64,000 nucleotides of DNA from Emticicia oligotrophica DSM 17448 (GTDB lineage Bacteria > Bacteroidota > Bacteroidia > Cytophagales > Spirosomataceae). The notes beneath the pieces were generated by a model that saw only the letters and a program-made list of their open reading frames with translations, was not told the DNA's origin and searched no databases. Positions 53,820 to 54,355 of the stretch are shown one piece after another. Position numbers and translations under genes: made by a program. Each line of letters opens with the position of its first letter. Position 1 is the stretch's first letter. Where the stretch lies: positions 1,488,001-1,552,000 of the forward strand of contig NC_018748.1 of NCBI RefSeq assembly GCF_000263195.1. The letters are read 5' to 3'.

Positions 53820-53884
53820 CCCCTCCTTTTTTCAAGGAGGGGTGGCAAAATTTTGACGAAGTCGAATTTTGACGGGGTGGTTGA
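53820..53884. repeat. Left inverted repeat of the DUF559 element
   Basis: About 65 nt with two hairpins: CCCCTCCTT/AAGGAGGGG (53820-53842) and CAAAATT..GTC/AATTTTG around GAA (53846-53871), ending ACGGGGTGGTTG. It matches the reverse complement of 54254-54313 over its length, apart from changes inside the second hairpin. Confidence 0.8.
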
Positions 53885-53913
53885 ACATTGGAGTAATTTT
53901 TTAGAAAAAAACT

Positions 53914-54252
53914 ATGCAACTCAATAATCTAAAGTCCTTAAAACCACAAAGAAAACATTTACGAAACCACTCCACATCGGCTGAGGCAACTTTATGGAGT
54001 TACTAAAAGAATAGTCAATTAGAAGGACGAAAGTTTAGAAGACAACACAGTATTGAATTTTACATTCTTGACTTTTTTTGCCCATCAGAAAAAATAAACA
54101 TAGAATTAGATGGACAAGAACACTTTGAAGGCTACGGACTCGTGCACGATGAAAAACGTGATGAGTTTTTAAAATCACTCAACATTAAAGTATTAAGATT
54201 TGAAAATATAGAATGGGTTTTGAATGAGATTAAAAGGCATTTTAAAACTTAA
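53914..54252 (+). pseudogene. DUF559 endonuclease gene with an in-frame stop
   Basis: 113 codons encode a complete DUF559 (Vsr/PD-(D/E)XK-like) nuclease except that codon 31 (54004-54006) is TAA. Family members have LWxxLKxxQLxGxKFRRQ here; the sequence reads LWSY, stop, KNSQLEGRKFRRQ, so a single change of TTA (Leu) to TAA explains it. Downstream the nuclease core is intact: FYILDFFCPSEKINIELDG (Asp and Glu of the active site), HDEKRDEFLKSLNIKVLRF and a final WVLNEIKRHFK. No other frame damage is seen, so inactivation is recent, or the stop is read through. Confidence 0.85.
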
Positions 54253-54253
54253 A

Positions 54254-54313
54254 CAACCACCCCGTCAAAGTCCGATTCCATCAGGACTTTGACACCCCTC
54301 CTTTGAAAGGAGG
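54254..54313. repeat. Right inverted repeat of the DUF559 element
   Basis: 60 nt: CAACCACCCC, then hairpin GTCAAAGTCC/GGACTTTGAC (54264-54293, loop GATTCCATCA), then hairpin CCTCCTTT/AAAGGAGG (54297-54313). Inverted with respect to 53820-53884. It begins 2 nt after the nuclease stop codon. Confidence 0.8.
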
Positions 54314-54355
54314 AGAAACTTTATTACACGGTATAAACAAACGACCTTCATCAAA

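Follow-up and report, generated by a model that had tools for sequence, protein, structure and literature searches.

A small unit in the genome of Emticicia oligotrophica, in which a DUF559 nuclease gene is enclosed by hairpin-bearing inverted repeats, is best read from its sequence as a member of a REPIN-like mobile family, where a Vsr/homing-endonuclease-like nuclease would take the place of the RAYT. We consider it probable that the nuclease of this mobile family acts on its own hairpins. The sequences themselves show the architecture of the element, the association of nuclease and hairpins, the covariation of repeat and nuclease, presence and absence at orthologous sites, and in-frame insertions in proteins.

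Anatomy and decay of the element

Within the window, the whole stretch of 64,000 nt that was analysed, the DUF559 gene lies between a comB-like and an epimerase-like gene (gene names by our own reading) and is enclosed by inverted repeats, each with two hairpins and a GGGGTGGTT tag (Table 1). The layout that had been predicted, of a DUF559 gene within two-hairpin inverted repeats, is confirmed: the arms (53829-53883 and 54254-54308) are 55 nt long, 80% complementary and 370 nt apart, each end folds as single-stranded DNA into two hairpins (z = -3.4 and -6.2 against shuffles), and the gene matches PF04480 with an E of 1e-25 (90.1 bits against a curated cut-off of 20.6, its stop codon being read as X). 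Pyrimidine-arm hairpins occur in 2 of the 261 bins of the window, both at the DUF559 element. The exact CCCCTCCN4-22GGAGGGG hairpin has a single occurrence in the 5.22 Mb genome, which is the left outer hairpin of the element, and the right outer hairpin is one base off this pattern. The tag CGGGGTGGTT has five exact sites in the genome, two of them at the element; the other three are without hairpin ends and look, by our own reading, like coding sequence.

Table 1. Features of the DUF559 element, with positions in the window
Feature	Position	Strand	Basis
Left outer hairpin CCCCTCC...GGAGGGG	53820-53842		single-strand folding and genome pattern count
Left inner hairpin	53844-53873		single-strand folding
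Left tag CGGGGTGGTT, pointing toward the gene	53873-53882	+	exact-match count in genome
DUF559 (PF04480) nuclease gene, TAA at codon 31	53914-54252	+	Pfam match
Right tag, repeating the left tag in inverted orientation	54255-54264	-	exact-match count in genome
Right inner hairpin GTCAAAGTCC...GGACTTTGAC	54264-54293		inverted-repeat alignment and folding
Right outer hairpin CCCCTCCTTTGAAAGGAGGAG	about 54295-54315		folding; similar to the lone hairpin at the G085 site

The gene itself is broken, being interrupted by an in-frame TAA (54004-54006), which is also why it is missing from the list of open reading frames. This stop was overlooked in the original prediction, whose domain identity stands. 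One further DUF559 copy in the genome, between trpE and trpG by our own reading, is broken as well, with one in-frame TAG; its inverted C-rich ends are of different sequence and its matched repeat is weak (score 30, a level that 8% of 600 cross-pairs attain). The trpE-trpG gap measures 38-105 bp in seven congeners without the element and holds other ORFs in G062 and G123; no trpE was found next to the trpG of G085. The gap of G123 (L096) contains a transposase of the Y1 type, accompanied by a hairpin of its own. Recoding of the stop was rejected, since the two DUF559 copies of the genome differ in stop codon and stop position, and it is also opposed by the 120 of 123 standalone loci which, by our own count, have no stop inside the domain. 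One stop each was also flagged in a DUF559 copy of G039 and in a fragment of G104. Comparison with related bacteria suggests that the unit in the window is the decayed remnant of a small mobile element, relatives of which also sit in frame within conserved proteins.

The nuclease and its hairpins in other genomes

DUF559 is the sole Pfam family found in the gene of the element, and the Y1 HUH transposase by which a REPtron is recognised is not found there. A search with a profile built from 16 relatives recovers 3hrl (2.1e-27) and 3r3p, which is I-Bth0305I (8.8e-4), and with a structure model of the relative L131 (mean pLDDT 85.7) the only Foldseek matches under 0.001 were these same two, 3hrl (E 3.4e-8) and 3r3p (E 3.4e-4); profile and model derive from relatives of the window copy. 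The fold of the homing-family nucleases is thus recovered via 3r3p, by the profile and by the relative's model, with modest scores. YcjD has been linked to Vsr (PMC1189080), EDxHD homing nucleases have been described (PMC3943268), and a Caulobacter DUF559 protein, VsrA, has been proposed to act in mismatch repair (PMC12907096). PADLOC gave weak mREase_II matches (E about 1e-5) for two of three proteins. No publication joining DUF559 and an inverted repeat was found among the open PMC papers searched, which does not prove absence.

PF04480 matches occur in 69 of the 150 family genomes, and the loci tested were the standalone ones of the family together with the best 80 loci of a larger genome-wide scan. 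The repeats that had been proposed as the ends of the unit flank DUF559 far above chance: a matched inverted repeat above the 99% level of the same-locus null was found at 31 of 49 usable family loci and 41 of 69 usable genome-wide loci, and C-rich (pyrimidine-arm) hairpins stand on both sides at 22 of 47 family loci, against 0 of 215 control windows, and at 37 of 66 wider standalone loci, against 1 of 473, by a rule that requires no matching between the sides. At least one side carries a hairpin at 34 of the 47 family loci (4/215 windows) and 57 of the 66 wider ones (21/473 windows), and by the same rule neither side does at 13 and 9 loci, respectively. Judged by record title, positive loci come from Bacteroidota, Acidobacteria, Anaerolineae, Nitrospinae, Parcubacteria, Uhrbacteria and others. 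In a plasmid collection 39 records had a hit, and 11 of 19 picked loci score at least 29, in a set without a null of its own; there were also three phage hits for DUF559. The more similar the nucleases, the more similar the repeats (rho 0.233, a value reached in 0 of 2000 permutations) over 69 of the 120 loci, those with a matched repeat, in a comparison that ignores shared ancestry.

Some further observations concern single loci. A known RNA family was rejected, the lone Rfam match reaching 20.8 bits, below the gathering score of 39. The C-terminal tails at L022, L039, L059 and L061, such as TSPQPPPSIGGG, resemble by our own reading the translated start of the downstream hairpin. Sphingomonas parapaucimobilis has DUF559 genes in two settings, one in the sufB-sufC gap and one separating a GatB/YqeY gene from dnaG (L325 and L324). 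In S. meliloti Ak57 (L328) a DUF559 gene lies between long matched repeats, with 23 repeat places on its 3.7 Mb record, against 2-5 on the remaining S. meliloti records among the matches listed (15 of 100), record sizes differing. E. coli ycjD is annotated DUF559, and no matched repeat was found between its upstream and downstream flanks (score 20). A C-rich repeat pair, which may be linked to the RSA repeats, stands downstream of ycjD, before fabI (L205, 1493-2052); a query over this downstream stretch has a median of 4 match places per genome, and a query of ycjD with its flanks reached a coverage of 80% or more in 3361 of 5426 genomes. We set ycjD aside as an empty-site test, because an efflux operon occupies its place in the two ycjD-less strains examined (see also PMC12817139); the S. 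meliloti flanks likewise proved unusable for such a test.

The ends of the element also occur without the gene. Among 18 hairpin neighbourhoods from five congeners, several show outer hairpin, inner hairpin and tag face to face across a short spacer with no gene between them, G085 being one example of a gene-less doublet that shares the element's ends. One G085 doublet sits in an intergenic gap of 247 bp; the corresponding gap is 46-47 bp long in G128 and G110, and in G062 and G123 a different palindrome stands in a gap of 92 bp. That the repeats are found alone, as single hairpins and as gene-less doublets, answers one point of the original prediction and counts against its simple version; solitary repeats are expected of REPIN-like elements.

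The 44 genomes that we classed as having a standalone DUF559 (a class that includes two fragments and the window genome's own broken copies) have a median of 3 exact CCCCTCC hairpins and a mean of 16.7, against a median of 0 and a mean of 1.6 in the other 106, in-frame carriers included (Mann-Whitney p = 2.4e-6, shared ancestry being ignored by the test). Some DUF559-bearing genomes count zero such hairpins, and counts of 5-23 are seen in eight genomes that have no standalone match: four of these genomes (G085, G123, G082, G095) carry in-frame copies and the other four (G008, G023, G055, G120) have no PF04480 match. G016 has 220 exact hairpins, against 1-7 in its eight congeners, none with a standalone DUF559 match and one (G082) with an in-frame match. 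Two full doublets bracket the DUF559 gene of G016, and doublets similar to these match many other places in G016 and none in the congeners at E 0.001. Many gene-less inverted doublets, as in REPIN systems, are thus seen in G016, and the window genome has its exact hairpin at the element only. The DUF559 site of G016 was set aside as a clean empty site, since two of the congeners (G108, G043) hold another gene there and the others, judged from match positions, about 10 kb.

Orthologous sites and in-frame copies

The comB-epimerase gap contains the DUF559 unit in 1 of the 11 genomes of the genus and lacks it in all 10 congeners, the comparison that the original prediction had proposed; the arrangement is not kept at this locus in relatives. 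In G085, the best-aligned congener, well-aligned flanks enclose one hairpin instead of the unit. By our own reading, other hairpins occupy this gap in G110 and G128 and an unrelated inverted repeat does so in G062 and G123; such a hairpin is missing from G102, G094, G027, G074 and G049. The single hairpin of G085 may represent either an old target or a scar, as the window genome falls, in a three-gene tree, outside the G085/G128/G110 group. In a check for a co-conversion tract around the G085 site, the diagnostic sites counted 2 of 4 at the comB end, compared with 12 of 123 in other parts (p = 0.06). At the uvrA site of the same genus, G074 carries DUF559 with both hairpins, G049 has a single in-frame hairpin, and eight of the ten genomes compared (G000, G027, G094, G102, G062, G110, G085 and G123) are empty, with a short linker at the site; this comparison leaves out G128, where the match is cut by a contig end. 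Several DUF559 loci appear, by our own reading, to be common to congeners, which counts against the simple version of mobility, as do the loci with a hairpin on neither side and the broken state of the window copy.

Long DUF559 ORFs are mostly in-frame insertions, in which the hairpins at both ends are translated. A matched inverted repeat stands at the domain edges in all 33 domain rows (32 distinct copies, as L006 is the second domain of L353), the lowest score being 28 and the null maximum 26 over 104 windows; partial matches below 50 bits in long ORFs were excluded. This test left out five long ORFs from the genome-wide scan, of which four have hairpins on both sides of the domain and L127 has a hairpin on one. 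Beyond the ends of the long ORFs, as distinct from the domain ends, a matched repeat was found in 1 of 13 cases and hairpins on both sides in 1 of 12. The hosts recognised by Pfam are MetH, UvrA, a class I tRNA synthetase (IleRS by our own reading), methylmalonyl-CoA mutase, MnmE, CoA transferase and a PDDEXK_1 protein. DUF559 joins the CoA-transferase A and B parts in L007 and L357 (by Pfam) and in L018 and L028 (by our own reading), is terminal and not internal in L349, L351, L352 and L069, and occurs as two domains in the MetH of G007. In 18 long proteins, of which two overlap, the Pfam matches at E up to 0.001 included no splicing (Hint) domain. L069 (G112) contains three tandem DUF559 stretches, two of them partial.

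A possible route of movement and its relation to known systems

In our preferred reading the element consists of a single gene for a DUF559 nuclease of the Vsr/EDxHD-type PD-(D/E)XK kind, with tagged palindromes as its ends, and the same ends minus the gene form REPIN-like doublets and single hairpins. The nuclease may recognise and cut its own type of tagged hairpin, and host repair would then fill the break with a copy of the hairpin-gene-hairpin unit, or of a gene-less doublet, as with homing nucleases. Cutting, target and copying route are what we infer here, since the homing-type fold, the covariation and the empty, single-hairpin and full states point to cutting of palindromes and copying by repair. 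The homing route alone we hold tentatively, with more doubt than belief. The minimal mobile element originally proposed, of RAYT-like layout with another nuclease fold or of homing type, gains support from these data, its mobility being still something we infer.

Other routes and other roles can be considered. The nearest characterised relative is a homing endonuclease, and no strand-joining activity is known for PD-(D/E)XK nucleases, both of which speak against a RAYT/IS200-like route for the same element, in which the nuclease would nick the tagged hairpins on single-stranded DNA and the single-stranded unit would be copied or rejoined. This route is unlikely, though it deserves attention, as the element's ends fold well as single strands and the tag-plus-hairpin doublets have REPIN anatomy (PMC3116915). 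Movement of the palindromes by Y1/RAYT (HUH) transposases encoded elsewhere in the genome, with DUF559 as a passenger, receives very little credence from us: Y1 transposase matches were found in 14 of the 17 genomes searched, the window's own included, but the Y1_Tnp search found none in three hairpin-rich genomes (G106, G080 and G142, with 45, 35 and 27 hairpins), and none of the 30 fetched Y1 loci has the CCCCTCC hairpin, the one flavour sought.

It could also be that DUF559 is a host repair nuclease, Vsr-like and comparable to the Caulobacter VsrA, and that the hairpins beside it act as terminators or are intergenic repeats of an ordinary kind. This would agree with the VsrA data (PMC12907096) and with the intergenic hairpins of the standalone cases, but it is made highly improbable by left and right flanks that match each other, by gene-less doublets with the same ends, by unrelated host proteins with in-frame copies that hold such hairpins within their coding sequence, and by presence and absence among congeners. 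Equally hard to credit, or slightly more so than either of the last two, is the idea that the unit is a gene for defence or restriction that has no self-movement and spreads through ordinary recombination at repeats. The weak mREase_II matches from PADLOC, for two of three proteins, would fit it, whereas the unit has no partner gene, and it is difficult to see how such a gene would come to lie within MetH, UvrA, a tRNA synthetase and MnmE.

A wider reading can also be formulated, about which we are almost evenly divided and lean slightly to doubt: that tagged-palindrome-flanked, Vsr-like DUF559 genes form a cross-phylum mobile class, which would move itself and gene-less doublets and would also insert, unspliced and in frame, into MetH, UvrA, IleRS, MnmE and methylmalonyl-CoA mutase. 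Were this true, hosts would carry a translated selfish nuclease within a protein, with MetH, UvrA, the tRNA synthetase and MnmE as proteins that have a selfish domain inside; the translated hairpins would account for the proline/glycine-rich linkers of those hosts; and REP-like repeats that have no transposase would gain a dedicated enzyme. CGTC repeats are among the bacterial palindromic repeats without a known mover (PMC3733652), and the question of the mover becomes testable with a small, widespread nuclease of unsettled function, to whose family E. coli YcjD belongs, tied to REPIN-like repeats.

Among known systems, Neisseria NGO0050 (3hrl) is the best fold match, and the EDxHD/Vsr-type homing endonucleases (I-Bth0305I) are the closest characterised fold of the DUF559 family; unlike these, the DUF559 element has a compact protein and palindromic ends, and no intron or intein. 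The in-frame copies differ from inteins in having no splicing domain in Pfam. Rickettsia palindromic elements are palindromic units inserted in frame in proteins, and the DUF559 units can be likened to them, both being in-frame palindromes, many of the DUF559 ones with a nuclease. E. coli YcjD is of the same family, but the flanks of ycjD have no matched repeat pair by our score. REPtrons (REP/REPIN with RAYT; PMC3116915 and PMC3733652) differ in their nuclease, which is a Y1 HUH enzyme where the element has DUF559 (PD-(D/E)XK), and in their tag, which is GTAG where that of the element is GGGGTGG-like, its gene-side repeat ending in CGGGGTGGTT. They resemble the DUF559 family in having tagged palindromes in inverted doublets, with many copies in some genomes, and in that these repeats also flank a nuclease gene, as the inverted palindromes do in the window element.
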